Positions 4,499-60,687 of a DNA stretch of 64,000 nt are shown in pieces. The notes below the pieces were generated by a model. That model was not told the origin of the DNA and searched no databases. It saw nothing but the letters and a program-made list of their open reading frames with translations. The DNA comes from a virus. Location: positions 1 to 64,000 of the IMG/VR virus record IMGVR_UViG_3300027972_000001, one strand, 5' to 3'. The translations under genes were made by a program, and so were the position numbers. How positions within the stretch are numbered: position 1 is the stretch's first letter; each line of letters opens with the position of its first letter.

Positions 4499-4501
4499 AA
4501 A

Positions 4502-5062: not shown

Positions 5063-5072
5063 AATACTAAGT

Positions 5073-40098: not shown

Positions 40099-43000
40099 CT
40101 ATCCTCGGAAAAGTATATAATACTTATTGGTTTTGTTTATTCGTTGCATCTGTTGTATTTTATTCCAAATCGGCACTAACTTAATAGCATTAACTTTAAT
40201 TTTAAGTTCTTTTGCATATGCACCAGTAACATATCTTCTTTCCTTATCAGTTTGGAAAGGATAGCCAACAAGATTAGATATTAATTTATAAGTATCAAGT
40301 ATAGTACCTTGTACAGCAGCAGGAGATTTTAACATCTTTTGACCTTCATTTATAAGTCCAAATGGAGTAAACATCATTACTTCACTTAATAACTTATCTA
40401 TTTCATAAACACTTAAATCATAAGCAAAGTTTTCATCATCATCATCATCAGGTTTAAGATTCTTTAATATAAGTCCAACAACAAGAACTGTAGCAAGATA
40501 AATATGATCCAATACGGCTCTCTTAACATTACCTTTTTCAAAATCATCTAATGTATTCCAATAAAGACCAATATTAGTAGCAAAATGATGCATATCTTCA
40601 AGTATTCTACCCATCATACCATGAAACTGTTTAGCTTCATCAACATCTAAATATTTATGTCTACTAAATGGACTTGCTAAAAACTTAAATAAACTAACAT
40701 ATGCTCCCTTATTCCATTCATCTCTACTTTCTGTCCAAAAACTCTTCCAAAATTTAGCACCAAATCTTTTATTCCAACCAGGACGAACATGTTTTTTAAA
40801 TTGCATACCCATTCTACCTATAACCCATCTACTTATAGTAGCAGCATCTTCTTTATTATAAATACCTTGTTGTTTTTGAACTACTTTCAATGCTTTAATT
40901 CTAAATAAAGCATATTCATTATCATCTAATTTAGTATTATATTTCTTTCCATCTATTTCAATTTCATCTTTTAAATCGGCATAACCATCGTCATTTAGAT
41001 AAAAAGCATCAATAAGTTTAGGATTAGATTCAAAATTAGTAAAAGTAGTCTTATCTAATTCTTTTTTAGCTTCAACAAATGCATTTCCTTTTATTATAGG
41101 GAGATTTAGTATAAAATCACGAAGATAATCTTTTTTAGACTCTTTAAATTCTTCTTTTTTATATCTTTCTTTTAAATATTCAGCTAAACGTGTTTTTTCA
41201 GTATCATCAAGTATTTTATTTAAAGCATCTATATAATTTTGCTGTTGATATTCAGCTAAAGACATTATTTTACCATTAATAATTCTATGATGATCTAACA
41301 TAGATAAAGTACTAACATTCTGCATATAGTGTTCACCTATATCATTAAGAAAATAAGCAGAACTCCAACTAAGTAAGTTAGATTTTAACATACCAGTTGT
41401 AAAGTCACGTTCATTAGTATTTTGAGCAATATTAAGTTTCTTAATAATTGCATTAGTTAAAGTTCCAGCTTTAGTGCTTCCTAAATTAATAAGCATATCA
41501 GGAATAGCACTCATATACATTTTATCTGCCTTAACTAAATTATTATGTTTAAAATACCATCCAGCAAATGCTTCCAGCTGAACTTGTATTTTACCAATCA
41601 TAACGTTATTAATACCTGCTGTAACATTAAACCACATATTTTTAGCAGATGTAAATTTAAGTAACATATTACCAATGACAGTCCATGCACCTTCATCTAT
41701 ATCAAAATTGCCATAAAATATAGCTTCAAGCCATTCAGCAAAATGTTGTTCAAGATTAGTACCTTCTCCACCAGTAGTTCCTATTACCTCTTTATCTAAT
41801 GCTTTACTACCAGCTTTATTTTTAAGAAGTTCTCTTTTACTATTTCGTTTAGTAAATTCCATATTACGTATCTGATATAAACCAAGATCAAATTCATGTT
41901 TCATATCAGCTTTTACTTTATACATAGTAGCTTCTCTAATAAATTGAGAAAATACTTCTCCAAGATTATAATTTATTTTACCAGCGTGTTCTTCATCATT
42001 AAGTTTTCTAATTCTCTTATTTTCAACATATATAGCACCAAGAGTATTAAATTTACCTTTTCCTGCTACAGCAACATCTTGAATAACTCTTCTTTCGTAA
42101 TCACTTTCTAATTCATCTTTTTCTTTAGGAGCAATCTTAATTTCTTCAGTAGTTCCAAAATAATTTACCATAGGAACAGTAAGAAGATAAACCATTTCAT
42201 TATTTTCTCCTACAAAACTATCACTTTGTTTTCTAGCTTTATGGATATCAATCCAATGTTTAACTTTTTCAGCAATAGTAATATTTTCCTTTTCCTCATT
42301 ACTTAAACTAGGAATAAATCCTCTATTAAGAATAGTAGCTTTACCAAAATAGTCAGTATATTTATCAATTATTTCTACAAACTTTTGATAAAGTTCATCA
42401 TCTTTAATAGCAATCCAAGCTGGATTAAGATATTTATCAGAAGGAACAGACAGTAAACTATCACTTACTAAAAATTGCATTTTACCATCATATTCTCTAA
42501 CATTACGATATTTCCAAGCATTAAATTCAGGAGTACTTAATTCTTCTTGTTTTCTACGAACTAAGTTATTAAATTCTTCCTCAGTTATATTTTGAATTTC
42601 ATTATCTCTATACCATGCATCTCTACCATTATAATAACTTTGACTATTTCTACCATAAGTCTTAATTAAATATTTAAATTTAGCATTTTTATCAGTATAG
42701 AATTTATCCCAATCATATTTTTGAATAAGTTTACCTGTAGGTTTACCATTTTTGCGTTCAAGATACTTATTAAAATCAGCAGTTGTTAAACTAGTAATAT
42801 TACGTCCACCAAAAGTTTTTCTTAATAATGCTTCAAACTTACCAATTTCTTTACTAGATTCATCTTCACCATTTGATACTTTTACCATATATTTTTTGAC
42901 CATTAATGCAGCAAAAGCATTATTAGTATCAGCAAGTGAATCAAGTTTTAGTTGAATAAGATTTTCATCATCACCTATATCTATAATTCTTCTAAGACCG

Positions 43001-46000
43001 GCAACTATTTCAGGATTCTTAGTATATTGGTAAAGATCTCGTTCTTCAAAATCATTCCATAATTTAGCAACTTTAGTTTCAACATTTTTAATACTAGGAA
43101 TTAAGTTTTGAAGTTGTTTTATAAGATCATTAATTACTTTTTCTTCTTCAATAAATTCATTTCCATCTACAGATGTTAAAACATCAAACGAAGTTACCCC
43201 TTTAATAAAAGAAGTTGCCCATTTAATAAAGCCGGTAAACTCTTTTCTAACAACAGGATCACTAATAATAACATTCATATCCATATTTTCAAACTCCTGA
43301 ACTCTAGCTATAATACCACCTTTTCTAGTTTCAGTTTTAGGATCATTAAGATCAAAATCATATTGTTTAAGAACTGTAATTAATCCTTTAGCAAGATTAG
43401 CCAAATCATTTTGACCTATAAGTTTTTGAAAATTTTTATCATTTAAAAGATTGGCAGCATCACTAAGAGTTCCAGCTTTCTTAAATTCTTTAAGAAATTG
43501 TATTCTATTAGCATAACTAGTAGTAGTTTTTTCTATGAATTTATTAGCAGAATCAATAGCATTATTAATACCTTGATTAGTAGAAGAAGTATAAGAAACA
43601 AACTTAATATCTAATTGTCCTTCTTTTTGAGTTTCATTGAGAATTTGTGCTAATGCTCTAGCTTGATTAATATCACTAGTAGCAAATTTATCAGTAAGTA
43701 TTTCATTTTTAACAAGAGATCTTAATTCCTCAATTAGTTCTGGATTTTGTTTAGCCCATTCTCTCCATCCATCTAAATAATATTGCCATTGTTGTTCTCT
43801 AGTTATATCTGTAAGTGCTGGTTTACCTTTACCCTCTTTAATACTATTATATCCTTTAATATCAATTTGATAATGTTCTTCAATTGACATACTACGCATT
43901 AAAGTACTTAATTCTCCAGTGGTATCACTAACTTGCATTAATTTAGCTCCTGGTTTTAAAATAGCATAGAAAGCACTAAATCTTTTGTCTCCAGCACTAG
44001 ATACTTCATATCCTCGTGTACTAAAACGTGACCAATTATATTTATTTTCAATTATAAGTTCATTATCATCTTCAGTAACTTCTCCTTCTTCACTAATTCC
44101 AGTATTACTATCTTTCATTACATCTTGTAAAGTACCAATATACTCATATTCAAACTGAAATAGATCAGTTCTTTTTTCAAGAGGATGTGAAACAGTAATA
44201 TCCCAACCTTCTTTCTTACTCCATTCTTCTCTAGCAGGAAGAGAACTAAGATCAATATGAGTTAATTTTTTAGTAACTTTTACATATTCATCAGTTCCTT
44301 TAAGTCTAATATATGTTCCAACTTTAGCTAATTCCCATTTCTGAGCTTCTCCTGTATCAGCATATCTAGTTGTAGCAGTTCTTTCTCCTGCTCTAACTAA
44401 ATCTAAAGTACTATTATATTGTTCTAATCCATCTCTGAATGCATCATGAGTTCTAGTATAACTCATAGGAAGTGGTTCTTTATATATTACTTCATTAACT
44501 TGTCTTTGTTTTTCAAGAACATTAATTATTCCAATATAATCATCGGGACTTTGTAATTCACTTCCATTGAAATCTTGATTATTATCTTCAAATACACTTT
44601 GCTCTTCATTTTCAGAATATTCAAGTTTATTTATAGGATAATAATAAAATACACCAAATCTATTGCCAAATGTATCTACATTTACAAAATTATCATATCT
44701 TTGAAACAATTGATATTTAACTCCATCTTTAGTTGTTTTTCCTAATTTTATAACTTGTCTTTCTTTAACTCTATTGGCTATACGACCAGTAGGAATATTA
44801 TCAAGAGTTTTAGCAGGTATAGATATTATACCTTGTTTATTTACTTGAAAATATCTAACTTTACCACCTGTTGTTCCATCTTCATTTTGTGTAGTATTAT
44901 CTATATATTTTAATCCACTTGCATCTGGAACAATTTTATCTTCTGTCCAATGAGATTTAATATATCTTTCTTTATAGTTACTATTAAATATAAGTTGGCT
45001 ACCAGCATCTAAATCTGCATCTAAATCTTTTTCATCAAATAATAAACGATTTACAAGATTTAATTTTCCATATAAATGAGTACTTAATCCAATACCTTTT
45101 TCATTATAACTACCTTCCATAAATGGTTCATTACCATAATAGAAAACAGTATTTGGAATTATTTTACTAAATGAACTAAATCCAAATCCAAATCCATTAG
45201 TAATATATTCATATTTAAGTAAATTTCTAGCAACAATTTTTTCAAGTATATTTTCACTATACCAAAGATCATTAAAAGATTGACTTACTTTATCTAGATT
45301 CTCATTATTAATATACTCAACTTTATAATGACGATTACGTTTTAATTCTTGTGCTTGTGTACTAACTTTTAAACTATTAATAATATGATTTTCATCATAT
45401 TTAAGTTGATCATGTAAAAGTATAATTTGATTAGCAAGACTAAGTTGTTCAAAATCAGTAATACTTTCAGGATTTTTTAAATCTAAATTTAAATTTAATT
45501 CAGTATTAATACCAAGAAGAGTTCTTTTTTCTTCAATACTAATATCATTTAACCAAGGAAGATCTTTAAGTAAACTATTATTTAAATAACTAGTAATAGA
45601 TTCAGCTAATTTTTTATCATATTTTTTATCAGTAACATAATCATTTAATTTACTTTTAATAAATCTATATAATTCACTTTGACCAATAAAATATTCTCCA
45701 AATGCTTTGACACTTAATTGATTAGAAAATATAAAAAATTGTTCAAGAGTAGGATAAACACTTGGTTTAGTTAAATTAAAAAATTTAGGAAATATTTGGT
45801 GCATAGCACTTGTATCATTTATTTCAAGTATACCTACCTTTTCAGTTCTATTTATATCAAATTCAAGAGAATGAGTAACATCAAATGTAGGTCCAGCACC
45901 TAGAGTATCAGTATTCAATACATGAGTACCATCAGTAATTGCATCTGAATATGCTTTATAATGTTTAAAAGTTTCAATAATTTGAAGTTGGTAACGAAGA

Positions 46001-49000
46001 TGATTTTCAATTTCTTTAAGTCTATTAGTATCTGGATTTTCACTTGCAAGAATATCATTAATTTCTTGCATATTACCAAAATCATCTAACGTAACTGTAT
46101 TTACATTGTTAAGTAATGTTTCATGATTTAATGTAATTCCTAAATTATTTTTATAACCTAAATAGTCATATTGTTGATTTCTAACTGCATCTTTACCGCC
46201 AATAAAAATTGACTGTTTATTATTAATCTTTTCATCCCAACCTTTATTATGTTCTGCATCACCTTTAATCATTACACGATATAAAAGTGTTTGAAATTTA
46301 CGTTTAGTTTGTTCAATTTCACTACCACGTTTAACATTATTTAAATTAGCAAATAAAGTATTAACAAGATCATGTATAATAGGTTGATTAATAAATGCTG
46401 TACTTACTTTAAATGTAGAACCTAAACTAACAAGCATTTTCCAAATATTAACAGTATATTCATTAACATTTCTTGGAAGAGGAAATGCTACATTATCAAG
46501 AATATTTGCAGTAGTTTGTGCTGAATATGAACTTATGAGTTGTCCTTCAACATTTTTAAAAGTATTATTAGGATTATTATTAATAAATCTATGAGTTACT
46601 ATTGCATATTCTTTAGTATTATTTGTAGTGCCTCTAGTTTCAAATCTAACATCTTTACCATAATTTTCAATAAGTTGTTTTTTCTGTTCAGGATTAACAA
46701 TATATTCAATAATAGGTAGAGTAATGTTATTATTTATATTATTTTTTTCATCTTTGAGTCTTTCTGTAAGATGTATTCTTGCAACTTGAGCAATAGAATT
46801 AAATCTATCTGATGCTAAACTAATACCTTTCAAATCTCTACCTTGATGTGATTTATCTCTATAATGTTGCTGACCATCAAAAGTAAGGTTATTAACTCTT
46901 TGATCAATAACATTGAATTTTTCATCAATCTCTTTTTTAGATTCAGTAATAGATTTAAAGTTAGATGTAGCTATAGTTTCTGCATAATGATATTTATTAG
47001 TTAAAATACCATAATATATATTTAGAATTTGATTTTCTCTAGCTTTTCTAGTATTTTGTTCAAGTATTGGTAAAGAAGATATAATTTCTTTAACTCTAGC
47101 TTTCACATTTATATATTCAACTTTATCTTTAAAATATATATATGCTTCATCACTCATTATTTGAGCAAATACTTCAGCTTTTTCTAAATATAATGCTTTC
47201 TTCTCTTTACCTTTAGCTTTACTAATTCTTTTATTTATAGAATCAATTTTATCAAATTGCGGTTTATGTTTTTTATTAACTTCAGAAGTTTTATCAAGAC
47301 TATCATAATATTCTTGTTTAGCTTCATCTAATGAAGTAACTATATCAATTAATTTATCATTATTTAATTTAAGAGCTAGTATATGAACTAATTGAGAATG
47401 ATCTTCCATTATAGCTTGAGCTCTACTATCAAGATTATTATCTTCTGTATAGGGAATACGTTCTACAGTATATATAGAAGTAGGTTTATTATCAACTATT
47501 TCAGTAGTTACTTTAGTATGCAAATTATATATAAATGCATATACATGATCCATATCAAAATCAGATCCTGTTTGAGTTACAAAATCATCAGGAAGAACAA
47601 TACTTGGACCATTATCATCAGGAAGAAAACCAACAACTTTAAATACATAAGCACTATATTTGGCTTCCATAGGAATACGATAACCAACCATAGTTCTAAC
47701 TTCATCAGATAAAGTATTTATATCAACATATTCTCCATCTTTATAAAATTGTTTTGCCCATCTTGGAAGTAATACTTCAGCTTCTTGTACCATTCCTTCT
47801 TTTTCATCAAAAAGAATAGTAGAACGAAGTTTAATATCATTACGATTAATAACTTTACCAGCAGGATTAGTTTTAACACCTACGCTTTTGTGCCAGTTAA
47901 TTCCATCAATAGATTCAAGATCTGACCATTTAACACCTTGTTTCTTATTCATGAATAAACTAGACATTTGAGCACCATGAAGTCCAGGAAACTTCTGGTT
48001 AGTTACACCATTAGTAAATAATGATGTAAGAATATGTTCACATTGAGCACTTTGAGTATTAAAGAAAATAGGAACTCTGGAATCACCAGTATCTCCAATT
48101 TGAACACTAAATAATAAGTTTTTACTTAAATTACGATCAATTCCTTCTTTTTCAAGAATATCTACAATTACATTATAATCTATATCACCTATAATATTTC
48201 CATCTTTATCAACTCTAACATCAAATGGTAATAAAGTTTTAATAGCACTTTGAAATACATTACTATTAATAAGTTCAAAGTAATGATTTTTTAATTCAAC
48301 GCCATTTAAAGTTTTACCATTGACTATATAATCAACACCAGTATCAGGAATATTTTCTATTATTTTTTTAGCAAATTGTCTACTTAAAGTAATAGTTTCT
48401 TCAAAAATAGCATCAGGAACTTCTAATTGCATACGTAATCCTTCATAATTATAATTACGTTTAGCTTTAATAAGTTCTTTTTCTAAAGTATCATCGTCTA
48501 CTATATTACCATCTTCATCAGCAATAGTTGCAATATATAATGAACCAATTTTTTCAGCACTTCCAAGATTTATTTGAGGAATATCTAATTTTATCATTAT
48601 CTTATTAAGACTATCTAGTTGAAGATCTTTAATAAGAGCTGGTGTTAATATAATCTCTGCATTCTTAACTTGAGTGGGAATCATTTTTTGTAAATCATCA
48701 TTACGATCTATACTATAATAAAAGTTCTTTTGCATAGATGCAAAACGCATAGTATCTTCTCTATTTAATTCTCCACCATTTCTAACTTTATTTAAAATAG
48801 TAGAATACTGTTCAGTTAATCCAAATCCATGAATACGTTTTTCAAATTCATCAAAGGTAACAAATGATACAGCATTAGCACTATCATTAGATAGATATGG
48901 AGAAACTAAATTGTATATTTCTTTTTCTTCAGGTCTAAATAATGTCTGTTCTTTATCATTAATAACTATTTTATTAGTTGATAATTCTTTATCAGTATAG

Positions 49001-52000
49001 ATTTTTTCAAGTCTACTAATACGAACTTTATCTTTATTAATATTAAGAGCATAAAGTAAAGTATTAATTTTATGTCTATATATTTTAGATTTTAATTTAA
49101 CATCAGAAATTGTTGCTCCAGAATAAAATCCTTTATGTACACTTGGAATACCATTTGCGATAATTTGTCTACCACGTTTATTTAAATCAATATTACTCTT
49201 GTAGTCAGCTACACTACCATAAAATAATCTAACTTGTTCTACATTAAAAAGATAAGTATTAAGAGCATATTCAGCAATAGCATTATTAAAATTTTTATCT
49301 TTTAATATAAATGTTTTATCTTCTCTACCTACATTCTCTTTTTTAACATATGCTGTTGTTAAAAAATCTTTATATACACTTAATTTTTCATCAGCAATAT
49401 TAATTTGTTGTGAAATAAAACGTAATATAAATTGTTCTAATCTATTTTTAAAGGTAGAATTAGGATCACCTTCAATAAGTGGAGTATGAATAGCAGAATT
49501 TAAAGAATTAGATAACATTAAATATTTAATAAAATTAGTGTTATTAATAAAAATACTATTAAAAGTAATTTGTTTATTACCCATAGTAACAGTAAGATTA
49601 TTAATATCAAAAATGTTGCCACTACTTGTTGTATCTAATCTATAAGTTCCGTCTGTATCTTTAGTGAAAGTTAAATATTTCTTAACACCATCTTTAAGTT
49701 TATAATGATAAAATAATTGTCCAGATTTAACATCATTTTGAAATTCTTTTTTAAGTACAAATCCAAAATTACCATCATCAATAGCTTTACCATCTTTAAG
49801 TTCAAATAATACTTGTTTTGCAGTATTCATTGCTATTAGTTCATCAATAGCATTTAAATATATTGCTTTAAAAATTGGAATTTCTCTTACTAATTCAAGT
49901 GATTTATTAATATCAGTTTCTTTTTTAGCAAGTAGTAATTTAGTATAGTCTACAAAATTTAATTCAATGATAGGTGCTTCAAATAATCTAGTATTTTTTC
50001 CATCTGAAGGATTTATCATTGGAAAAATAGCTGTAAGTTTTTCATTAACTTCTTTTTTAGTAGTAATTTTACCACCACCAAAATAATAAATTAAATTTCT
50101 TAATGTCCAATCATATTTAGTAAGTTTATGATATTCAGTAGCAATTCCCTCAGTAAGATCTTTGGTACCACTATATCTAAAACTCTTAAAATTACTAAGA
50201 TTAGTAGTATTTATAGTAGTTGCTTTTCTTATTCCGTCTACTATTTTATAATCAAATATACCTCTACCTTTCTTAACAATTTCATTATCTATATATTCAT
50301 CCCCCCATAAAAGAAGAGAGTGTTGATTAGATAGAATTGTTGTATAATTAATTAGAGCATTATAAACACTATCATCACCACCTTCAAGTTTCTTAAAGAA
50401 ATTACTTAAAGAATCTGGTTTATTAGCATCAAACACTAAATTACCAGTAACATTTATATTGCTAAAACTGAAATGATCTTCTCTAAAATATTTAACTTTC
50501 TTAGCTAAACGAAGAAGATTACCAAATTCATTAAATATTGTTTTAGGTGTGGCTTGTAATCTATCAATATAAGGTGTTTCATATAGTTTATATTTTACTC
50601 CAGGAATACCTTTAATATTACGAAGTGGAGTAATTATTCCATTAATAAATTCATTTCTATTGTTTAAATATTCATAATTAATACTATCTAAAGTAATATC
50701 AATTCCAACTAAATAATATAATTGAACTATATTAGCACCAATTTCAGGATCTAATTTAGTAAAATTAGAACTAAGTGTTGCAGTTTCTTTATATAATTTA
50801 TCATAATTTTCAATCCAATCTTTATCATAAAAATTATTTTCACCTCTACTAATAATTAAATTAGCCCATTTATCAGCGATATGATATTCAACTGCATTTC
50901 TATTAACATTAGTTAAGGTAAGTTCTGTAGTTTCATAATCTCCAGTATAGTCAGTTCTAATTAAATCTCTATATGAATCAATAATAGCTTTATCAAAAGA
51001 TACAAACCAAGCATTAAGTAAATCTGGATTATTACTAAGTTCTTTATGAATACTATATAAACTTTTAGCAAATACACTTTCTTTATTAGTAGCATAATTA
51101 AATAATGCGGTAAGCATATCTTCTTTAGTAAGACAACCACGCATTAAATCCATTATCTTATTTCCTCTTTCAGCATAAACAAGAGTATTAGCAAAACCAG
51201 TAGGAGTATTAGTATTAGTTCTCCATATAATTTTACCATCTATTATTTGAATACTATTAGGATCTAATTCATATGTTTTATTAATAAGATTTTTAATTTG
51301 ATCATTTACTGTAATTAAAGGGTTAACAATAACTACATCACTACTATCCCAAGATTTATCAAGTAATTCAACATCTTCTATATACTCTTCTTTTTCATTT
51401 ATTTTATAACCATATTGATTACTTAAATGAATTCTAAAATATTTCCAAAATCTATCATTACTACTAAGTTCTTCAAGAACTTTAGTAATAAGAACTTTTT
51501 GATCATAAGTGAGAGTGCCTTCATTTTTACGAAGAGTAGCTTGTTTAGCTAGTTCTCTAACTAAATCACTTCTAATTGCATTAGGATCAATATCTTTACC
51601 TTTAACTCCTTTATAAGAAGCACTTACTTTTTCAATAAATAAGTTACTAAGAACATTAAGAACATTAACTTCTTGGTCTAATTCAAATGGAGAACCAGTA
51701 AGTTCTTTATTAACAGTAGAAGAATAAGAAATTGATTTAACATCTTTTTCAGAAATTATTGTATGAATTTGTTCAGGTTTGAATACTATATATTCTTTTA
51801 TTTTTATATTAAGATCTGTTGTGTTTAAAATTATACTGTCATATCCTTCTCTTTTAGCTCTTTCTATTACTTGTGGTTTAGTTTCTTTAATATTAATACT
51901 TGGAGTGAAATCTTCTATTAATGGATTAATGATATTTAATACTACTTCAGTAATAAAAGGAGTTCCTGCTCTATATTCAGACATTTTTTTAGCATGTTCT

Positions 52001-55000
52001 ATAGAATCTGAAAAGAAAAATCCTTTTGATATATATTGTTTATTTTCTGTAAAAGTTTTTATTTCTCCTTCTGGACTACCATGATAAAGAATATCTTTTA
52101 TTTTGCTATCTGGAAAAATATTATTTAATTCATTTTTAGTCTCACTAGTAAAACTAACTATAGGTTTTTCAACAGGTTCATCTTCTGCAAATTTATCAAG
52201 AATATCATCATATTCATCACGATTAGAAACTTCACCTAATGTTGTTTTATCTATAGTACTTTTAATATCTCCACCAGTAATAAATTGTTCAAATATATAA
52301 TTTAATTCATCAAGTTTAGTACTAATGCCAAAAGTTTGTGCAAGTTCTCTTATTATCTGTTTTAATTTAGCCCAAAAACTAGTAGTAACTTTACCTTCAG
52401 TAGTTTTAACTGTATCAAGAAATTTAGCAAAATCAGTATCAGTAAGACCATATGTAAGAAGTTCTTCAACATCTTTCATATTTAAAATGCTGATTAATTT
52501 ATTTTCTATTTCAGTTCTATCTTTTTTCTCATTTAATAATTTATATTCAGGAGTAGTAAATAAATCAGATTTAAATTTGTTAAGTTGTTCAATTAATTTA
52601 GTTTGTTCTTCTTTACTTCTAGTTCCAACTAAAGCATGTATAGTATCATGTACTAAAGCAAGAGTTGCATCAACTTTATTTTTCTTATATAACTCAACCC
52701 AGGTTTTAGTTACTGTTATAGATTTATTAGAAGGTGTGTAATACACCATAGATTTTCTACCAGTTTCTTTATCAGTTTTAGTAACATCTAATGCACCATT
52801 AAATGTAATTTTACCACTTTTAATAAAAGTATCAAGAATTTTAAATATAAAGTCATATCTTTTATCAAATTCATATTCACTACTAAATTTAGCAAAACTT
52901 GGAGTTTTAGTAACATTGGTCTTTAAATGACTTGTATCTATATTTACAATTAAAGGTACACCACCAACACCATCATATTGAGATAAAGTGAAATTACTAA
53001 TCTTCTTACCATTTTTATCAACTAATTGTCCAACATCTGTAAGAATAGTATTACTACTAATTAAATATTCTTCATATGAATTGTGTTTATTACCAAGAAT
53101 ATCAGTAAATATATTTCCATCAAAATAATCATAATTAATATTTCTTTCAAGAGAACCTAATTCATCTCTAAATTCTCTCTCATTTATTGGTTTAGTTATT
53201 TTAGTATTACCTTCAATACGTTCGTATCTAAATTTATTATTATAAAAATCATAAACAAAATAAGTTCCATTACTATTAAATCTAATATCTCTATTAGTAA
53301 CCATTAGAACATTAAAATGTTCTTGTTCATGTTGAATATTGATAATCTTTTTAAGTTCTGTAATTATATTACTTGCAGTAAGATTATGTCCCTCAACAAC
53401 AACTTGATCATTAATTCTAAATGCTTCACGAGCAAGTGCTTGTGTTTTACCAAGTTCAATAATTAAATCTCCAATTTTTTCATGTAATTGTTTAACATTA
53501 TCATCTTTAATTAAATTACTATCAATGCTATTTAATTTTATTGGAACAGGAGTAACTTTACCACTTCTACCTACAACCCCAACAAGAAAAGAAGATGCAA
53601 ATGTTGGAATAGTTCCTTGTTTAGTTATAGTTTCATTCTTATCTCTAGTATTTTCAATTACAGTTTTATTAGAATTATTTTGTATTTTAAATAATTTAAC
53701 TTTACTAGGATTATCAATTACAGAAAGATTTCTATATTTAACATTTCCTTTCTCATCTTTACTTTTAACTAAAGTTCCATCAGTAATATATGTAATTTTA
53801 CTTTCAACAATTTTATCAATATCTATTCCAATAATTTCTCTAAGTTTAGTATTCTGAATATGATCTCTAGTAAGTTTATCTTTCCAACGAACTATATTTG
53901 CAATAATTTCATTTCTTCTTAATTCAATAGGAGTAACACCATCTGTATTCTGTCCATAAAACATAACACGAGCAATATGAGTAAAAGCTTTCATACCTTG
54001 CTCACTTCTAATATCAATATCTCTACCTACTAAATCATAAAGAAGTTCACGAATATCAGCATCTATAAGTTCCAAATATATTCTAGAAATAGTAGTCTTG
54101 CTTTCATTCATTTTTTTAGCATTAAAAAATGTTTGAATAAGTGGGAGCAATCTACCAATATATTCTATTTTATTATTACTAGTACTTATATCATTAATTA
54201 TAACGTCTGTCCAGTCTTTACCATTAAAACGATACTTAACTCCGGCATGCATACCACTTAAAGTACTGACTGCAGCAATAGGAGTACGTTTATTTCCACT
54301 TATTGCTTCAATTATAATAGGTATAGTTTCTTGGTTATTCTTATTTTGGTTGAACCCCTGATCTCCGGACAATTCAGTATTGACATGGGCAACTACCTGT
54401 GAATTTTCAGCCAAAGAGTTCAAAAGAGCATTAACACGTTCAATATCTTTATCATCTACAACCTGATCACCATTATCATTACGAGTAGTTTCTAAATTAT
54501 AAAGAAATGCTCCTAATACTTCTTCACCACCAGTAGGAGTTACATTATTTATATTACTAATTTGAGCTTCTTTAAATTCATCTTTAAGTCCATAAGATTC
54601 AATAATCTTATTAACATCAGTCTTTTTTAAATTATCATCAGTATTATAAATACGTTTCTGACCTTCTTCACCTATTTTACTACTTCTAATAATACTATAC
54701 GCCTGTTTAAGATATTCAAAATCTTCTTTTAATCTTTGAACACCAACTAGTTTACCATATTTAGCAGCAATAAGTTCAAATTTAAAGAATGTACCATGTT
54801 CTGCAGATTCAACAAATAAAGGAGTACCATCATTTATAATTCTAGTTATCCATCTATTTGCCCTTGCAACTATATTTTTTGTTATGGGGTTTTGGGAAGT
54901 AAAATCAACAACAGATAGAGTTAAATCAGTAATATTAGTAGATTTATCTGTAAGTTTAGAGATTTCTGCATCATATTTAGTATTAATTTTAGCTTTTAAA

Positions 55001-58000
55001 TATTTTTCAGAAATTTCTATTGCTTTATTTAGAGCAGTTTCACGATTTTTTTCTAGTTGTTGTAAATTTTTATCATAAATAGCACCTTTATTAGCTCCAG
55101 ATTTTACAAAATATTCATCAAATTCAGTTTTTGCTTTTGTATAATCATCTATTAAATCTTTTGACATACCACTTTTTAAAGCACTTTCTATATTAAATAA
55201 TGTGGTTTTTAATTCTTCTTGTCTACGTTTTTCAATATCAACTATTAAACTAGAAAAATTATTAGATGATTCTTGTTTATACGCTTGTTCTTTAATTTCT
55301 TTTTCTATTTCATCTAATTCTTTGCCATTCAATGCAGATTTAAATTCTTCAGCATTATTAATATGTTCTTGTGATTTATTACTTCCAGTAGGAGTAGTTG
55401 TTTCAGTATTAGTTATATATCCAGCAATAACAAGAAATTCATTTATAAATTCTTCTATTACATTTCCTTTAGTAAGAGCATTAAACATATTATTTAAAGC
55501 ATCTCTTAACTGATTTCTAGTTGCCTGACCATACATATCAAATAAACTAGGATCAGATAACATAGCAAAGAAATCACCAATACTATTAAGTGTATTAGGA
55601 TCTGTAGGTTTTGCTATTTCTTTAAGAATAGTATTTGCAAAATGTGTACTACGTTTTCCAGTGAATTGACTTTTAACACCTACAACACCTAACTTAAGAA
55701 AAGCATCAGATAATTTATTAACAAGTGCTGTATTTTTGACTTCTACATTACTACTACTTTGTTCATCAGCAATCATTAATGTTTTTTGATTTACTAATAT
55801 ACTTCTTCTTTTTTCAAGAACATCAATATATGCTTCTAATCTATCTTTATTTAATTTCTTAGTAGGTTTAGCTTCAGTAACAAAAGGATCTAAATTATCT
55901 TTTTTAAGTTGTTCTAAAGTATCATCAATAACTTTAATTTTAGCATCCATTGTAGAACTAGTATCTACTTTAGGATCTACTTTAGTATTCTCACCTATTT
56001 TAACTCTAAATGTCTCAAATTGTTTACTATATTCTTTATCAGTTTCAACTTTAAGTTTATTCTCAATAGTAGGAATACTCTTGTTAGTATTCATTACTTC
56101 TTCATATAAACTATTATCAACATGAAGAAATAATTCATAAACTTTAGCTTCTGCTTCAGCTTTTATAATATCATTAATAGAATCAAAGTCACCTACTGCT
56201 TTATTATCTCCTAACTCTTTATCATGAAGTTTAAATTCATCTTTATATTGCTTAACTTTCTCTTTAGCAATATTCTTAGCAATTGGATCACCCCACTCTT
56301 CTACTTCAGTGTCAAGATATTTAATAACTTCAGCATTAATAAGATTATCTAAAGTTCCCTCAAAATCTTTATCTTTATTTTGTTCTTTAAGAGCATCTAA
56401 AGCTGGATTATTAGTTCGTAAATTAGTTGCTCTTTGTTTAGCATTATTACGCAATTTAGTTGTTTGTTCAACTTCAAATTTCTTATTTATTGCTTCATTA
56501 ATAATGAGATTTCTTAAATGTGGTTTACTACTTGTTGCAGTAAATATTTTGTTATATGTTGCTTTAAAAGTATGTTCGGCATCAAGAATATTCTTTTTAA
56601 GACTGACTAAATCTTTACTAAAATTAACTTCATCTGTCAATCCAAGTTCAATCATTTTCTTTTTAAATCCTTCATGTTCAACCATCTCAAGTAATGAATT
56701 AATATTACCTGAAAGTGAAGCATTAAATCCAAGATCATATCCTAATACTGTTTTGACTCTATCAATCATATCCTTTTGAGACTGTTCAATAGTTTCTTTA
56801 TCACCAACAAAAGGAGTATTAGTATTTATATTAATTCCTTTTTGAATGTCACTAATATTATTAGCACGATTAGCAAGTTTAATATATCTATTTTGAATTT
56901 CACCAATCTTCATTTCAGTACTATGAGGATCTTTGAAATCATTAATAGTTTCTTTTATAGAACCAATAGTACGTGCACCACCACTGAATGCTACACCACC
57001 AGCAAATCCCCAAAATGCTTGTTCCCAACTACTAGGATCTTGAAGATATTCATGTATTCTATCTACAAAATCTTTATCTTTTTCACTACCTAATAGATGT
57101 TTACCATACCAATTAGCATCAGATTGAGAAATAGCATTTACAAGTTCTTCTACTCCTTCTGTCATTTGCTCACCAACTAACACAGTTCCCCCCTTAAAAA
57201 AAGAAGATGCGTTGAAACGTGGTTTAGTAATAACGCCAGGTTCTAATATATTAGCTTGTGCAGCTTTTACTTTAGCACTTTCTAGCCAACCTGCAGTTCT
57301 AGTTTTAACTTTAAATCCTTTAAATATTGGAGCAAGTTGCATTGCATCAAATATAACATTGACTGCATTCATACCATAATCTTTCCATGCTCCTTTACTA
57401 GCTATAAAATTAGCAAGTTCAAGTTTATCTGGAGTTCTACCTTCTGCAAGAAACTCTTGTCCAACTTCAGAATTTAGAACTTTTTGATATTCTTCATCAT
57501 CTTGAAATAATTTAAATGCTTCTTCTTTAAGCGTATTAAATACTCCACTAGCTTCTCTCATATTTTCTGCATTACGCATAGCAATAGCAGAATGAGTAAG
57601 ACCTTGCCAATATTTTTCAGTAGCAAATATATCAGATGCAGCAATAAATGCTTTAGAAACACCTGTCATTTTATTAAGTCTACTAAGTGCAGCAATTTTT
57701 TGAAGTCCTTTACTAAAATAACCAGCAGCTTTAGCTTCACCAAGTGCAGGAATTAACATTCCTAAAGTACTAAATACACTAACAGCATTGCTAGTCCACC
57801 ATCCAAAATCTTTCCAATCAAATGATTTACCAGGATTATATCTAAATATAGGAGTTTTATTTCCTAATTCTTCGGTAATATTATCTGCAAATTTAGTCAT
57901 AAAATTACTAAAATCTGCATCTCTTCCTGCTATTTCATCTGCAATAGCATCAGGTAATTCCAATAACCCACCAACACCACCAATAACTCCTTGAGCAAGT

Positions 58001-58290
58001 ATTTCTCCTATTACACCTTGACTAAACATATTACCTACTTTACTCCAAGCAGATTGATTCTGAGCAGCCTGACGTTCTAAATTAACATTAGGATATATTT
58101 CATCTATAAAACGTTTATATTTATCACTATTTGGCTGGTATAAACTTAAATCAGAACTAATATTATTCATATTAGTATCAATCTTAAATTTACTATTAAT
58201 TGGTGCTATTTTTTCAACACTTTTTGGAGTAACAGTAAGAGAAGGATTAATCTTTAACCCTTTATTAATAGGAGTAAGTTCGTTAGTCAT
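40099..58290 (-). CDS. Giant virion protein with crAss-like RNA polymerase core (6063 aa)
   Basis: One uninterrupted frame of 18.2 kb. The polymerase core is marked by GSDFDMDHVY with the metal-binding Asp residues at 3577, 3579 and 3581, in a context (YRIPMEAKYSAYVF, then VLPDDFVTQTG) like the catalytic double-psi beta-barrel of crAss and YonO-type polymerases. Other domains are: a hydrophobic N-terminal region near 165-195; a metallopeptidase-like domain from about 1870 with HDTIH at 1881-1885; an ADP-ribosyltransferase-like domain at about 2060-2180 starting LYHGSP; an ASCH-like domain at about 4620-4715; an unnamed module at about 4750-4890; and a C-terminal membrane-like helix near 5930. 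In relatives the polymerase is carried in the virion, enters the cell with DNA and transcribes early genes. Homologous regions are often split over several genes. Only three bases separate it from the upstream gene. Confidence 0.88.
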   Translation of the reverse strand: MTNELTPINKGLKINPSLTVTPKSVEKIAPINSKFKIDTNMNNISSDLSLYQPNSDKYKRFIDEIYPNVNLERQAAQNQSAWSKVGNMFSQGVIGEILAQGVIGGVGGLLELPDAIADEIAGRDADFSNFMTKFADNITEELGNKTPIFRYNPGKSFDWKDFGWWTSNAVSVFSTLGMLIPALGEAKAAGYFSKGLQKIAALSRLNKMTGVSKAFIAASDIFATEKYWQGLTHSAIAMRNAENMREASGVFNTLKEEAFKLFQDDEEYQKVLNSEVGQEFLAEGRTPDKLELANFIASKGAWKDYGMNAVNVIFDAMQLAPIFKGFKVKTRTAGWLESAKVKAAQANILEPGVITKPRFNASSFFKGGTVLVGEQMTEGVEELVNAISQSDANWYGKHLLGSEKDKDFVDRIHEYLQDPSSWEQAFWGFAGGVAFSGGARTIGSIKETINDFKDPHSTEMKIGEIQNRYIKLANRANNISDIQKGININTNTPFVGDKETIEQSQKDMIDRVKTVLGYDLGFNASLSGNINSLLEMVEHEGFKKKMIELGLTDEVNFSKDLVSLKKNILDAEHTFKATYNKIFTATSSKPHLRNLIINEAINKKFEVEQTTKLRNNAKQRATNLRTNNPALDALKEQNKDKDFEGTLDNLINAEVIKYLDTEVEEWGDPIAKNIAKEKVKQYKDEFKLHDKELGDNKAVGDFDSINDIIKAEAEAKVYELFLHVDNSLYEEVMNTNKSIPTIENKLKVETDKEYSKQFETFRVKIGENTKVDPKVDTSSTMDAKIKVIDDTLEQLKKDNLDPFVTEAKPTKKLNKDRLEAYIDVLEKRRSILVNQKTLMIADEQSSSNVEVKNTALVNKLSDAFLKLGVVGVKSQFTGKRSTHFANTILKEIAKPTDPNTLNSIGDFFAMLSDPSLFDMYGQATRNQLRDALNNMFNALTKGNVIEEFINEFLVIAGYITNTETTTPTGSNKSQEHINNAEEFKSALNGKELDEIEKEIKEQAYKQESSNNFSSLIVDIEKRRQEELKTTLFNIESALKSGMSKDLIDDYTKAKTEFDEYFVKSGANKGAIYDKNLQQLEKNRETALNKAIEISEKYLKAKINTKYDAEISKLTDKSTNITDLTLSVVDFTSQNPITKNIVARANRWITRIINDGTPLFVESAEHGTFFKFELIAAKYGKLVGVQRLKEDFEYLKQAYSIIRSSKIGEEGQKRIYNTDDNLKKTDVNKIIESYGLKDEFKEAQISNINNVTPTGGEEVLGAFLYNLETTRNDNGDQVVDDKDIERVNALLNSLAENSQVVAHVNTELSGDQGFNQNKNNQETIPIIIEAISGNKRTPIAAVSTLSGMHAGVKYRFNGKDWTDVIINDISTSNNKIEYIGRLLPLIQTFFNAKKMNESKTTISRIYLELIDADIRELLYDLVGRDIDIRSEQGMKAFTHIARVMFYGQNTDGVTPIELRRNEIIANIVRWKDKLTRDHIQNTKLREIIGIDIDKIVESKITYITDGTLVKSKDEKGNVKYRNLSVIDNPSKVKLFKIQNNSNKTVIENTRDKNETITKQGTIPTFASSFLVGVVGRSGKVTPVPIKLNSIDSNLIKDDNVKQLHEKIGDLIIELGKTQALAREAFRINDQVVVEGHNLTASNIITELKKIINIQHEQEHFNVLMVTNRDIRFNSNGTYFVYDFYNNKFRYERIEGNTKITKPINEREFRDELGSLERNINYDYFDGNIFTDILGNKHNSYEEYLISSNTILTDVGQLVDKNGKKISNFTLSQYDGVGGVPLIVNIDTSHLKTNVTKTPSFAKFSSEYEFDKRYDFIFKILDTFIKSGKITFNGALDVTKTDKETGRKSMVYYTPSNKSITVTKTWVELYKKNKVDATLALVHDTIHALVGTRSKEEQTKLIEQLNKFKSDLFTTPEYKLLNEKKDRTEIENKLISILNMKDVEELLTYGLTDTDFAKFLDTVKTTEGKVTTSFWAKLKQIIRELAQTFGISTKLDELNYIFEQFITGGDIKSTIDKTTLGEVSNRDEYDDILDKFAEDEPVEKPIVSFTSETKNELNNIFPDSKIKDILYHGSPEGEIKTFTENKQYISKGFFFSDSIEHAKKMSEYRAGTPFITEVVLNIINPLIEDFTPSINIKETKPQVIERAKREGYDSIILNTTDLNIKIKEYIVFKPEQIHTIISEKDVKSISYSSTVNKELTGSPFELDQEVNVLNVLSNLFIEKVSASYKGVKGKDIDPNAIRSDLVRELAKQATLRKNEGTLTYDQKVLITKVLEELSSNDRFWKYFRIHLSNQYGYKINEKEEYIEDVELLDKSWDSSDVVIVNPLITVNDQIKNLINKTYELDPNSIQIIDGKIIWRTNTNTPTGFANTLVYAERGNKIMDLMRGCLTKEDMLTALFNYATNKESVFAKSLYSIHKELSNNPDLLNAWFVSFDKAIIDSYRDLIRTDYTGDYETTELTLTNVNRNAVEYHIADKWANLIISRGENNFYDKDWIENYDKLYKETATLSSNFTKLDPEIGANIVQLYYLVGIDITLDSINYEYLNNRNEFINGIITPLRNIKGIPGVKYKLYETPYIDRLQATPKTIFNEFGNLLRLAKKVKYFREDHFSFSNINVTGNLVFDANKPDSLSNFFKKLEGGDDSVYNALINYTTILSNQHSLLLWGDEYIDNEIVKKGRGIFDYKIVDGIRKATTINTTNLSNFKSFRYSGTKDLTEGIATEYHKLTKYDWTLRNLIYYFGGGKITTKKEVNEKLTAIFPMINPSDGKNTRLFEAPIIELNFVDYTKLLLAKKETDINKSLELVREIPIFKAIYLNAIDELIAMNTAKQVLFELKDGKAIDDGNFGFVLKKEFQNDVKSGQLFYHYKLKDGVKKYLTFTKDTDGTYRLDTTSSGNIFDINNLTVTMGNKQITFNSIFINNTNFIKYLMLSNSLNSAIHTPLIEGDPNSTFKNRLEQFILRFISQQINIADEKLSVYKDFLTTAYVKKENVGREDKTFILKDKNFNNAIAEYALNTYLFNVEQVRLFYGSVADYKSNIDLNKRGRQIIANGIPSVHKGFYSGATISDVKLKSKIYRHKINTLLYALNINKDKVRISRLEKIYTDKELSTNKIVINDKEQTLFRPEEKEIYNLVSPYLSNDSANAVSFVTFDEFEKRIHGFGLTEQYSTILNKVRNGGELNREDTMRFASMQKNFYYSIDRNDDLQKMIPTQVKNAEIILTPALIKDLQLDSLNKIMIKLDIPQINLGSAEKIGSLYIATIADEDGNIVDDDTLEKELIKAKRNYNYEGLRMQLEVPDAIFEETITLSRQFAKKIIENIPDTGVDYIVNGKTLNGVELKNHYFELINSNVFQSAIKTLLPFDVRVDKDGNIIGDIDYNVIVDILEKEGIDRNLSKNLLFSVQIGDTGDSRVPIFFNTQSAQCEHILTSLFTNGVTNQKFPGLHGAQMSSLFMNKKQGVKWSDLESIDGINWHKSVGVKTNPAGKVINRNDIKLRSTILFDEKEGMVQEAEVLLPRWAKQFYKDGEYVDINTLSDEVRTMVGYRIPMEAKYSAYVFKVVGFLPDDNGPSIVLPDDFVTQTGSDFDMDHVYAFIYNLHTKVTTEIVDNKPTSIYTVERIPYTEDNNLDSRAQAIMEDHSQLVHILALKLNNDKLIDIVTSLDEAKQEYYDSLDKTSEVNKKHKPQFDKIDSINKRISKAKGKEKKALYLEKAEVFAQIMSDEAYIYFKDKVEYINVKARVKEIISSLPILEQNTRKARENQILNIYYGILTNKYHYAETIATSNFKSITESKKEIDEKFNVIDQRVNNLTFDGQQHYRDKSHQGRDLKGISLASDRFNSIAQVARIHLTERLKDEKNNINNNITLPIIEYIVNPEQKKQLIENYGKDVRFETRGTTNNTKEYAIVTHRFINNNPNNTFKNVEGQLISSYSAQTTANILDNVAFPLPRNVNEYTVNIWKMLVSLGSTFKVSTAFINQPIIHDLVNTLFANLNNVKRGSEIEQTKRKFQTLLYRVMIKGDAEHNKGWDEKINNKQSIFIGGKDAVRNQQYDYLGYKNNLGITLNHETLLNNVNTVTLDDFGNMQEINDILASENPDTNRLKEIENHLRYQLQIIETFKHYKAYSDAITDGTHVLNTDTLGAGPTFDVTHSLEFDINRTEKVGILEINDTSAMHQIFPKFFNLTKPSVYPTLEQFFIFSNQLSVKAFGEYFIGQSELYRFIKSKLNDYVTDKKYDKKLAESITSYLNNSLLKDLPWLNDISIEEKRTLLGINTELNLNLDLKNPESITDFEQLSLANQIILLHDQLKYDENHIINSLKVSTQAQELKRNRHYKVEYINNENLDKVSQSFNDLWYSENILEKIVARNLLKYEYITNGFGFGFSSFSKIIPNTVFYYGNEPFMEGSYNEKGIGLSTHLYGKLNLVNRLLFDEKDLDADLDAGSQLIFNSNYKERYIKSHWTEDKIVPDASGLKYIDNTTQNEDGTTGGKVRYFQVNKQGIISIPAKTLDNIPTGRIANRVKERQVIKLGKTTKDGVKYQLFQRYDNFVNVDTFGNRFGVFYYYPINKLEYSENEEQSVFEDNNQDFNGSELQSPDDYIGIINVLEKQRQVNEVIYKEPLPMSYTRTHDAFRDGLEQYNSTLDLVRAGERTATTRYADTGEAQKWELAKVGTYIRLKGTDEYVKVTKKLTHIDLSSLPAREEWSKKEGWDITVSHPLEKRTDLFQFEYEYIGTLQDVMKDSNTGISEEGEVTEDDNELIIENKYNWSRFSTRGYEVSSAGDKRFSAFYAILKPGAKLMQVSDTTGELSTLMRSMSIEEHYQIDIKGYNSIKEGKGKPALTDITREQQWQYYLDGWREWAKQNPELIEELRSLVKNEILTDKFATSDINQARALAQILNETQKEGQLDIKFVSYTSSTNQGINNAIDSANKFIEKTTTSYANRIQFLKEFKKAGTLSDAANLLNDKNFQKLIGQNDLANLAKGLITVLKQYDFDLNDPKTETRKGGIIARVQEFENMDMNVIISDPVVRKEFTGFIKWATSFIKGVTSFDVLTSVDGNEFIEEEKVINDLIKQLQNLIPSIKNVETKVAKLWNDFEERDLYQYTKNPEIVAGLRRIIDIGDDENLIQLKLDSLADTNNAFAALMVKKYMVKVSNGEDESSKEIGKFEALLRKTFGGRNITSLTTADFNKYLERKNGKPTGKLIQKYDWDKFYTDKNAKFKYLIKTYGRNSQSYYNGRDAWYRDNEIQNITEEEFNNLVRRKQEELSTPEFNAWKYRNVREYDGKMQFLVSDSLLSVPSDKYLNPAWIAIKDDELYQKFVEIIDKYTDYFGKATILNRGFIPSLSNEEKENITIAEKVKHWIDIHKARKQSDSFVGENNEMVYLLTVPMVNYFGTTEEIKIAPKEKDELESDYERRVIQDVAVAGKGKFNTLGAIYVENKRIRKLNDEEHAGKINYNLGEVFSQFIREATMYKVKADMKHEFDLGLYQIRNMEFTKRNSKRELLKNKAGSKALDKEVIGTTGGEGTNLEQHFAEWLEAIFYGNFDIDEGAWTVIGNMLLKFTSAKNMWFNVTAGINNVMIGKIQVQLEAFAGWYFKHNNLVKADKMYMSAIPDMLINLGSTKAGTLTNAIIKKLNIAQNTNERDFTTGMLKSNLLSWSSAYFLNDIGEHYMQNVSTLSMLDHHRIINGKIMSLAEYQQQNYIDALNKILDDTEKTRLAEYLKERYKKEEFKESKKDYLRDFILNLPIIKGNAFVEAKKELDKTTFTNFESNPKLIDAFYLNDDGYADLKDEIEIDGKKYNTKLDDNEYALFRIKALKVVQKQQGIYNKEDAATISRWVIGRMGMQFKKHVRPGWNKRFGAKFWKSFWTESRDEWNKGAYVSLFKFLASPFSRHKYLDVDEAKQFHGMMGRILEDMHHFATNIGLYWNTLDDFEKGNVKRAVLDHIYLATVLVVGLILKNLKPDDDDDENFAYDLSVYEIDKLLSEVMMFTPFGLINEGQKMLKSPAAVQGTILDTYKLISNLVGYPFQTDKERRYVTGAYAKELKIKVNAIKLVPIWNKIQQMQRINKTNKYYILFRG

Positions 58291-58293
58291 TAA

Positions 58294-60687
58294 TTATTTA
58301 TTAGAAAAATAAGAATCTTTAAAATAATTTTCAACACTTTCTAATGAATCAAATATACTAGGAACTCCTTGTGGAATACCAGCAACATCTGTCTGATATA
58401 ATAACAATCCACCTTTAGGATTACTAGTTAATTTAAAATTATATCTATTTCCATCTGCCCAAGGAACGTTAGTAAAATATTGTTCTCCTATATCATTAAA
58501 AGAAACATTTGGATTAAATTCTCTAGCTCTAGCTAATGTATTTTCAATTTCTTCAAAATAATGACGATACATATTATTTGCTACAGTCTGTTGTACCCAA
58601 TCATTAGCCTCTCCAGTAGCGACATTACTATTAGCAACATTTGCTAAAAAATTCATAAATTCAAATCTAATTCCAACATTAGGTTCAATAATATATGTAT
58701 CTTGCTCTAATGGAGTAACTTCTTTATTTTTAGGTGTAATACGTAAAAAGAAATTTGTTCCATTATGTTGTCCTTTAGGAACTTCTAAATTAAAATTATA
58801 TAATGCTGGATTTCCATCTTGTAAATCTTGAGATATTACTTGTCCTAAATTTTCTCTACCATCTTTATACTTTGTTGCTTGATTTTTAATACTAAATTCA
58901 CTAGCATTAGTTTGTGCGAAATTATTTAAACTTTCAATAAGTTTAGAAGGTTTTCCATCACTGTCAGTTAAAATAGCAGTTTCATATGAAACCTTTACAC
59001 CTTTTTCTTGTATTGCTTTAGTAAGAGCATAATTGAAAGATTTTCTTGTTCTAGCCATATCAGAATCAGTATATACACTTAAATCTTTATCTGATTTATA
59101 TTGACGTACAAGAAACCCAACATCTTGTGTTTCTTTTTCATTAGGTTCAAAAAGATATTTTGGTAAAGTAGAATTAACATCTTCAGTTTGTCCACTAATA
59201 TACTTAATAATATAATCTTTATTTTTTATAATTAAATCTCTATCGATTTTATTTCTAGCATTTTTAGTAAATTCTTTAAATAATTCGTCTGCATATACAC
59301 CACCTTCTACAGATTTTAAATAAGAACTTCTTAATATTCTTTCCTGATTTCTAATATTTTTTATTTCATAGTCCAATTGATTATATCTAGTATAATCTTC
59401 ATTTTTTCTAGTAATTGGATCAACATTTATTGAAGATCGTTCTTCAATTAATTTTCCCAATAGATCTTGTGTTTCAGTAGCATTATAGTCATTTAATTTG
59501 ACATTTGTTGTAAGTCCAGGATTAACATAATAAAAATCTTGATCATCTCTCAATTTATCAGCTCTTGCCATGTTATAGAAAAACATTTCATCTTTAATTA
59601 CTTTATGATCTATTTCATTATATCCAAATTGTCTACCAAAATTAACTATTTTATCAGTATCTAAATCAGTAAGTACTTTTTTATACATTTGTTGTACTGC
59701 TTCTCTATCACTTAATCCTTGTTCACGTAAATTACCATATAATCCAGTTTCCTTTAAATTAGGTGACATAGCTTTAACAACCATACTAGTAATAATACCA
59801 TTTATTCCAGGAAGATGAACTTTATTGCTCCAAGTATTCCATTTATCATCAACATCAATACCTAATGCTCTAAAATCAGAAGGAGTTAAATCTTTTTGTA
59901 TAAAGTCACCATACTCATCTTGTAAATAATTACCTTTTTCATCACGTTCAGTTACAGCATTGAATATTTCACTGTCATTAATATAATCATAATATTGTTT
60001 AACTTCTGGGGTACTATTAATCCATGCTTTAACAGCTTCTCCTAATTTATTAGGATCTTTACCTTTATTTGTATATAAATCTACATACCCTCTAAGATTA
60101 CCATTAGATTTGTATATTTCCATTATATCAGTGCCAGGCATTGCCAAAGTATCAGCATGTTGATTAAGTAATGTAACAATTTCTAATACTTTCTTTTCAG
60201 TATCTACTTTAGGTGGTGGTACAGGTGCTGCCCATCTATTTATTGCTTGACCATTTTCATCAAGTTCAATAGCTTTAGTATTATATCTTTTAGTATTAGT
60301 ATAAAAAGCATCTAAAGCTTTTTTATCAATCTTACCTTCTTCAAATTGTTTTTGAACATCTTGTTTAGTCGCTTGTTCTTTAGCATAATCTTCCATTGAA
60401 GCATTTAATGCTTTATCATTAGTTAATCTATCTTTAGCATTATATAAAATATTACTAGCATAATGCCATTTACCATTAACTTCATTAAGCATATTTTCAA
60501 CATCAGTAGTTGCTTTAGCTAAATGTCCAATATTCCTATCTTCAACTTTAACATTAGCCATAGCTTGTCGCAATAAACTAGATTGTTCTCTATTTCTATA
60601 ATATTTAGATTCAAGTAACTCACCAGTTCTTTCATAAGTTGAAATAGGAAGAGGCTTATAAGTAGATTGAAATTGAGCAAATTTCAT
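58294..60687 (-). CDS. Large virion cargo-like protein (797 aa)
   Basis: A 797-residue, highly charged, mostly helical protein with coiled-coil tendency (GHLAKATTDVENMLNEVNGK; TKQDVQKQFEEGKIDKKALD). It has no catalytic motif. Its position, directly upstream of the polymerase gene and downstream of another large helical protein, corresponds to the ejected cargo proteins described for crAss-like virions. These fill the capsid or tail and enter the cell with the DNA. The function is therefore inferred from gene order. The ATG at 60687 is followed by KFAQFQSTYKPLP. Confidence 0.72.
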   Translation of the reverse strand: MKFAQFQSTYKPLPISTYERTGELLESKYYRNREQSSLLRQAMANVKVEDRNIGHLAKATTDVENMLNEVNGKWHYASNILYNAKDRLTNDKALNASMEDYAKEQATKQDVQKQFEEGKIDKKALDAFYTNTKRYNTKAIELDENGQAINRWAAPVPPPKVDTEKKVLEIVTLLNQHADTLAMPGTDIMEIYKSNGNLRGYVDLYTNKGKDPNKLGEAVKAWINSTPEVKQYYDYINDSEIFNAVTERDEKGNYLQDEYGDFIQKDLTPSDFRALGIDVDDKWNTWSNKVHLPGINGIITSMVVKAMSPNLKETGLYGNLREQGLSDREAVQQMYKKVLTDLDTDKIVNFGRQFGYNEIDHKVIKDEMFFYNMARADKLRDDQDFYYVNPGLTTNVKLNDYNATETQDLLGKLIEERSSINVDPITRKNEDYTRYNQLDYEIKNIRNQERILRSSYLKSVEGGVYADELFKEFTKNARNKIDRDLIIKNKDYIIKYISGQTEDVNSTLPKYLFEPNEKETQDVGFLVRQYKSDKDLSVYTDSDMARTRKSFNYALTKAIQEKGVKVSYETAILTDSDGKPSKLIESLNNFAQTNASEFSIKNQATKYKDGRENLGQVISQDLQDGNPALYNFNLEVPKGQHNGTNFFLRITPKNKEVTPLEQDTYIIEPNVGIRFEFMNFLANVANSNVATGEANDWVQQTVANNMYRHYFEEIENTLARAREFNPNVSFNDIGEQYFTNVPWADGNRYNFKLTSNPKGGLLLYQTDVAGIPQGVPSIFDSLESVENYFKDSYFSNK

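Follow-up and report, generated by a model that had tools for sequence, protein, structure and literature searches.

The window described here is the whole stretch of 64,000 nucleotides that was analysed, and it is part of a virus record in IMG/VR that has 92,168 bases and represents a gut-type phage. On its minus strand it carries one giant open reading frame (ORF) with an ATG start, and the product is a single chain in which three modules, A, B and C, of a predicted crAss-type virion RNA polymerase are joined (Table 1). By comparison with annotated phages, module A extends from residue 20 to about residue 2030 (counterparts, phi14:2 gp67 and Carjivirus gp45), module B from about 2180 to 4600 (phi14:2 gp66) and module C from about 4900 to 6060 (phi14:2 gp65). 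The genome contains a crAss-type TerL (phrog_6681), 48% identical to that of the crAss-like phage cr127_1, and a crAss-type MCP (phrog_11589), and the polymerase block adjoins crAss structural genes. The ORF immediately upstream of the giant ORF encodes a probable cargo protein, and the same strand carries further probable cargo genes upstream. An ORF similar to GIY-YIG homing endonucleases (39257-40003, plus strand) faces the end of the giant ORF in convergent orientation.

Table 1. Features of the giant ORF and its upstream neighbour (positions in the window; residues in the giant chain)
Feature	Residues	Position	Strand	Evidence or remark
ORF of 797 aa immediately upstream of the giant ORF		58294..60687	(-)	41% identity with the module A neighbour of L010
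Giant ORF, crAss virion RNA polymerase modules A-B-C in one chain		40099..58290	(-)	6,063 aa, 694 kDa
Module A, conserved part	20-660	56311..58233	(-)	BLAST/HMM; homologue of phi14:2 gp67, Carjivirus gp45 and crAss002 gp32
Insertion, helical/charged	989-1120	54931..55326	(-)	Missing from L009, L010 and L013
Zincin-like metallopeptidase domain	1690-2030	52201..53223	(-)	Alignment A3; profile match 9sfn_G, E=0.003
HDTIH motif	1881-1885	52636..52650	(-)	Asp (codon GAT) in place of the HExxH Glu
ART-PolyVal ADP-ribosyltransferase domain (PF18760)	2052-2181	51748..52137	(-)	Pfam; A|B junction
Catalytic RNA polymerase core	2900-4060	46111..49593	(-)	AlphaFold + Foldseek
DFDMD metal-binding motif	3577-3581	47548..47562	(-)	Alignment, 48 sequences
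ASCH-like domain (tentative)	4630-4720	44131..44403	(-)	Weak Foldseek matches 1t62 and 9kyf; precedes the NADAR-like domain
Divergent NADAR-like domain (phrog_9995)	4751-4886	43633..44040	(-)	B|C junction; E4804, K4812 and D4867 conserved
Module C, conserved part	5380-6060	40111..42153	(-)	Homologue of the C-terminal part of phi14:2 gp65
Hydrophobic segment in module C	5925-5943	40462..40518	(-)	Hydropathy

The stop-free frame of 18.2 kb on which the initial annotation was based is confirmed. At the stop-trinucleotide density observed on the minus strand, a random frame of 6,063 codons has a probability of about 10^-242, and the codon-position composition is uniform and coding-like over the full chain. 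A megablast search of a phage collection with the giant ORF gave no DNA relative. The contig is derived from a metagenome and stops lie between the modules in most relatives, so an artefact of assembly or sequencing, by which stops were lost and three genes joined, has to be considered; its probability is, however, negligible, and this reading was rejected because the nearest relative, L009, which comes from an independent contig and shares 62% protein identity over the core, has the same single collinear frame of 5,824 aa, and two more single-chain cases are found in L013 and the L109 record. Therefore, the long frame is conserved and is not an error. The mass had been given as about 680 kDa and is computed as 694 kDa, but the view that this size is extreme does not hold: the virions of crAss001 contain the polymerase-associated proteins gp47, gp49 and gp50, whose total of 693.9 kDa (PMC10172136) is about the mass of the giant chain, single ORFs covering A, B and C are present in L009, L013 and the L109 record, and crAss polymerases of up to ~6000 aa are described in a review (PMC10136315). 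Fusion itself is thus already known, and the giant ORF is a further member near the upper end of the known size range.

Module B contains the catalytic core and is homologous to phi14:2 gp66 (24% identity, E=2e-24). The AlphaFold model of residues 2900-4060 (pLDDT 82.5, pTM 0.83) was matched by Foldseek to 6VR4, the virion polymerase of phi14:2 (E=4.8e-34, probability 1.00, TMq 0.60, 1,175 alignment columns), and to nothing else in the PDB at E<=0.001, while the viral library returned crAss proteins. A PDB search with the single polymerase sequence gave no match and a profile was needed; the family profile matches 6VR4 across 1,047 positions with E=9.7e-238, a value which is partly circular because the profile contains relatives of phi14:2. 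The DFDMD motif lies where it had been reported, in a loop of the strand-rich part of the model (model residues 591-712, that is, residues 3490-3611 of the chain), and D3577, D3579 and D3581 are invariant in 48 aligned polymerases, in the conserved context GYRIP...TGSDFD. Since the model matches 6VR4 and the profile agrees, the double-psi beta-barrel and the Asp triad expected around this motif are borne out by homology and modelling, the geometry of the metal site being predicted by homology. Module B can therefore be assigned firmly, on the grounds of sequence and predicted structure, as a DNA-dependent RNA polymerase in a single chain, of the phi14:2 gp66 type and with all three Asp of the triad in place, and the earlier proposal that a virion RNA polymerase of crAss type is joined here to accessory domains is supported. 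The same proposal had drawn attention to Met at the fourth position of the motif, where other crAss polymerases were said to have Ile or Gly. Met is indeed present and both other residues occur, yet so do Val and Thr (Ile 29, Val 14, Met 3, Thr 1 and Gly 1 among the 48), and the three sequences with Met are the window and its nearest relatives L009 and L010. A functional meaning of Met was accordingly dropped; it is a neutral variant of the clade at a position which varies among I, V, M, T and G. As a separate observation, a stretch of about 55 bases of module B (46001-46054, minus strand) has a 79% identical copy at 67522-67578 of the record.

Relatives of the chain were collected by several searches. 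The middle part of the chain gave 87 records by tblastn, nearly all crAss-like, at 24-30% identity; among viral contigs a single-sequence query with the core gave no relative, while an alignment (profile) query gave 128, and 80 loci were obtained. When HMMs of A, B and C were run on all loci, the order A-B-C was identical in all of them. The gene boundaries, on the other hand, differ: among 64 scored loci, some of which were scored from the place of B within its ORF, A not being seen, because the flanks were limited to 10 kb, the arrangement is AB|C in 26, A|B|C in 23, A|BC in 12 and ABC in three, namely the window, L009 (5,824 aa) and L013 (5,642 aa). The splitting over several ORFs which had been stated for relatives is hence found at 61 of the 64 loci, as two or three ORFs, and the polymerase tree implies no fewer than 11 changes of the A-B boundary and no fewer than two of the B-C boundary. 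The close relative L010, 49% identical over B-C, has A (1,988 aa) and BC (4,410 aa) apart, with tail-fibre-like ORFs between them, so that fusion is not essential. Such ORFs between A and BC are seen at 209-4734 of L010 (51% identity) and in L094; the junction therefore takes up whole genes too. A single chain still longer than that of the window, 6,677 aa, is found in the L109 record, with the order A, NADAR-like domain, B (DFDVD), C (L168/L169, joined coordinates 7595-27628).

In comparison with L009, the chain of the window differs by three insertions or replacements, at residues 989-1120, 2052-2181 and 4745-4893. The hydrophobic segment of module C lies about 139 residues from the C-terminus and has a comparable counterpart at a similar distance in most relatives; contact with the membrane during ejection is possible. 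In L031, L067, L070, L079 and L080, the polymerase region consists of many short ORFs under table 11, which suggests stop reassignment or introns, both of which are described for other crAss groups.

A peptidase-like domain in the same chain had been proposed together with proteolytic processing of the chain. The domain is present as a zincin-like domain, but its motif is not the canonical HExxH. All nine aligned zincin sequences share the zinc ligands H1881, H1885 and E1943; the catalytic position is Asp, encoded by GAT, in the window (HDTIH) and in L009 (HDMIH), whereas the other seven have Glu there, among them the A protein that L010 encodes as an ORF of its own (HEILH). The single chain of L013, which is outside the clade, has HELVH. 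Asp at the position of the HExxH Glu cripples zincins. The best PDB match of the zincin profile is 9sfn_G (E=0.003), and because this protein is internal to the virion of a different phage, the zincin type is present in ejected proteins beyond the crAss group. The Glu of zincins is predicted to be the general base, and self-cutting has been proposed as a general idea for zincins with N4-type polymerases (PMC5512222).

If the chain were a self-cutting polyprotein, the zincin would free the three modules, either within the capsid or following ejection. Such a scheme would suit a domain that retains its three zinc ligands and is situated shortly ahead of the A|B junction, and also the fact that A, B and C are made as separate proteins in relatives. 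Nevertheless, self-cutting is improbable: the general-base Glu is replaced by Asp in both single-chain members of the clade, the window and L009, while L010, with its separate ORFs, keeps HEILH, although the HELVH of the fused chain of L013 means that this argument is not decisive for all fused chains. In addition, an HExxH domain is still present in relatives which have A, B and C as separate ORFs (in gp65 in the case of phi14:2), so it is not kept for the separation of the modules, and the same zincin type occurs in the internal virion protein 9sfn of another phage. Because its catalytic Glu is Asp, the internal zincin is probably not cutting the chain, though an HDxxH motif could keep weak activity. 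Another protease, of phage head maturation or of the host, may be thought to cut the two linkers (A|B and B|C) instead, since the junctions are poorly conserved linkers which accept insertions of more than 100 residues. This is unlikely as well, as neither a candidate protease nor a cleavage motif was identified in this analysis and the crAss001 proteins are separate already at the gene level; moreover, the boundaries differ among relatives and no conserved cleavage site is therefore to be expected.

The module junctions carry accessory domains, a part of the chain that the initial annotation overlooked; neither the ART nor the NADAR-like domain was identified there. Pfam and NCBIfam scans of the chain named with confidence only one domain, the ART-PolyVal ADP-ribosyltransferase (matches of 4.1e-11 and 6.2e-13; 44.2 bits against a cut-off of 31.2), and residues H2070, F2091-F2093 and E2173 are located in the predicted ART domain. 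Relative to L009, it is inserted cleanly between A and B (gap 6811->6818 in L009). It is absent in the five relatives checked, a tblastn search of phages and plasmids gave no match, and domain scans of the A|B junctions of other loci gave no named domain. UniProt already annotates ART-PolyVal in a crAss polymerase-like protein (cr116_1). By analogy with Alt of phage T4, which modifies host targets (PMC9503650), the ART domain could modify targets in the host. The ASCH-like domain is tentative, with a Pfam ASCH match in one homologue at E=0.086.

At the B|C junction, residues 4745-4893 are replaced by an unrelated sequence in L009. In L010, the phrog_9995 domain is retained and is 75% identical, versus about 49% for the surrounding chain. 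Homologues of phrog_9995 that are not part of long chains are encoded by phiKZ-like phages and also by Achromobacter N4-like phages, where they lie close to the end of the genome. The domain of the window gave no direct match to Pfam NADAR-DarT1 (PF22397), but 19 of 56 homologues match this family, the best at 4e-10 and above the cut-off, and the close and far sets of homologues form one family (hhalign 99.8%, E=7e-28). A profile of four phrog_9995 sequences had only an insignificant match in the PDB and the profile of the far relatives was needed; its best PDB match is the NADAR protein of Geobacter lovleyi, 8bat (E=3e-4), where the catalytic E, K and D line up via A6. The catalytic residues of NADAR in E. 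coli C7 are E88, K95 and D171 (PMC11543638). To these correspond E4804, K4812 and D4867 of the window, which are invariant in alignment A7 as E60/K68/D123; the spacing from E to K is 8 in the window versus 7. With regard to the YbiA-like fold of NADAR, the model of the domain has a local pLDDT of about 96 and a plausible order of elements, and Foldseek at E<=0.001 gave no NADAR structure. The label "NADAR-like" is used because of the lack of a direct Pfam match, the lack of a NADAR structure in Foldseek and the E-K spacing which is one residue longer. These same three points would suit an unrelated small domain which shares a short motif and is no NADAR enzyme, but that reading is considered rather unlikely, since the domain is profile-linked to a set which matches PF22397 and whose best PDB match aligns the catalytic E, K and D.

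The NADAR-like domain recurs in long polymerase chains from several further crAss lineages, at three kinds of position. It lies at the B|C junction in the window, in L010 and in the L105 and L100 records, and between A and B in the L109 record and in L048/L053, in the latter of which the motif Gln is changed. In the L101 and L116 records, it lies inside the core at profile positions of about 457-485, which correspond to residues of about 3460-3490 of the window, about 90-120 before the Asp triad; the insert, shortly before the catalytic barrel, covers residues 2833-2953 of L170 and 2393-2512 of L172. On the polymerase tree, the presence of the domain changed at least seven times; because the NADAR search recruited some of the records, the positions and the repeated gain and loss can be read from them but not frequencies. 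NADAR-like domains are also seen at the start of mid-sized ORFs (L138, 595 aa; L139, 607 aa) and twice in long ORFs (L108 and L121), in records with no match to a crAss polymerase. That the domain recurs at three kinds of position, and that its presence changed no fewer than seven times, points to functional coupling and not to accident. A NADAR-like domain which is tethered to or inserted in the polymerase may, as a tentative proposal, remove guanine ADP-ribose of the DarT1 type from the entering phage DNA and so permit the first transcription. A literature search found no description of NADAR within a virion polymerase and gave one co-occurrence, a jumbo-phage review.

Taken together, it is highly probable that the window encodes a virion polymerase with A, B and C in one chain, in which fusion would alter the covalent linkage of the cargo and not its content, the module junctions would gain and lose host-conflict domains (ART, ASCH-like and NADAR-like) and the zincin probably does not cut. 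Packaging in the virion and transcription of early genes are known from papers on phi14:2 and crAss001. By analogy with these relatives, the chain would be expressed late, packed in the capsid, threaded through the tail in a partly unfolded state and refolded in the cell, where it would transcribe the early phage genes. The ART and NADAR-like domains may find their substrate in the host or in modified phage DNA immediately upon entry, and the NADAR-like domain might clear guanine ADP-ribose left by DarT1-type defence. The question posed by giant crAss polymerases thereby shifts from size to modular design: whether made as one chain, as two or as three, the polymerase is the same, and domains acting on NAD+/ADP-ribose chemistry gather at its junctions. 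The novelty rests on the recurrent, built-in NADAR-like domain and not on the fusion. If this domain is active, DNA repair against an anti-phage toxin would be delivered in the very molecule which reads that DNA, and this would connect virion polymerases with host defence in a way that is open to direct test, in a phage group that is abundant.

Among the known systems, phi14:2 gp66 (6VR4) with gp67 and gp65 shares with the window the catalytic core, DFDxD, the order A-B-C and the place by the structural genes; however, it uses three ORFs (1797, 2180 and 1421 aa), where the window has one with ART, ASCH-like and NADAR-like domains in addition, and its HExxH is in gp65, whereas the zincin of the window is in the A part and has HDxxH. 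The Intestiviridae pair (Carjivirus communis gp45/gp44, crAss002 gp32/gp33 and Rudgehvirus) is about 25-31% identical to the window in the aligned parts and has the zincin in A and B+C fused (4070-4245 aa), but its A is a separate ORF of about 2,000 aa with an intact HExxH. L009 (IMGVR_UViG_3300045973_000209) is, like the window, a single ORF with DFDMD and a zincin motif with Asp, but lacks the ART domain, the NADAR-like domain and the 989-1120 insertion, all three of which are present in the window. The polyvalent proteins that phages and conjugative elements encode (PMC5512222), among them N4-type virion polymerases joined to a zincin, resemble the window as injected multidomain chains with polymerase, zincin and ADP-ribosyltransferase; those polymerases are of the T7 type while that of the window is of the crAss type with two barrels, and the main text of that paper makes no mention of crAss or NADAR. 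Finally, the virion RNA polymerase of P23-45 (PMC10770324) is a giant chain too, of 5,002 aa, but unlike that of the window it is fused to the tail tape measure of a long-tailed phage.
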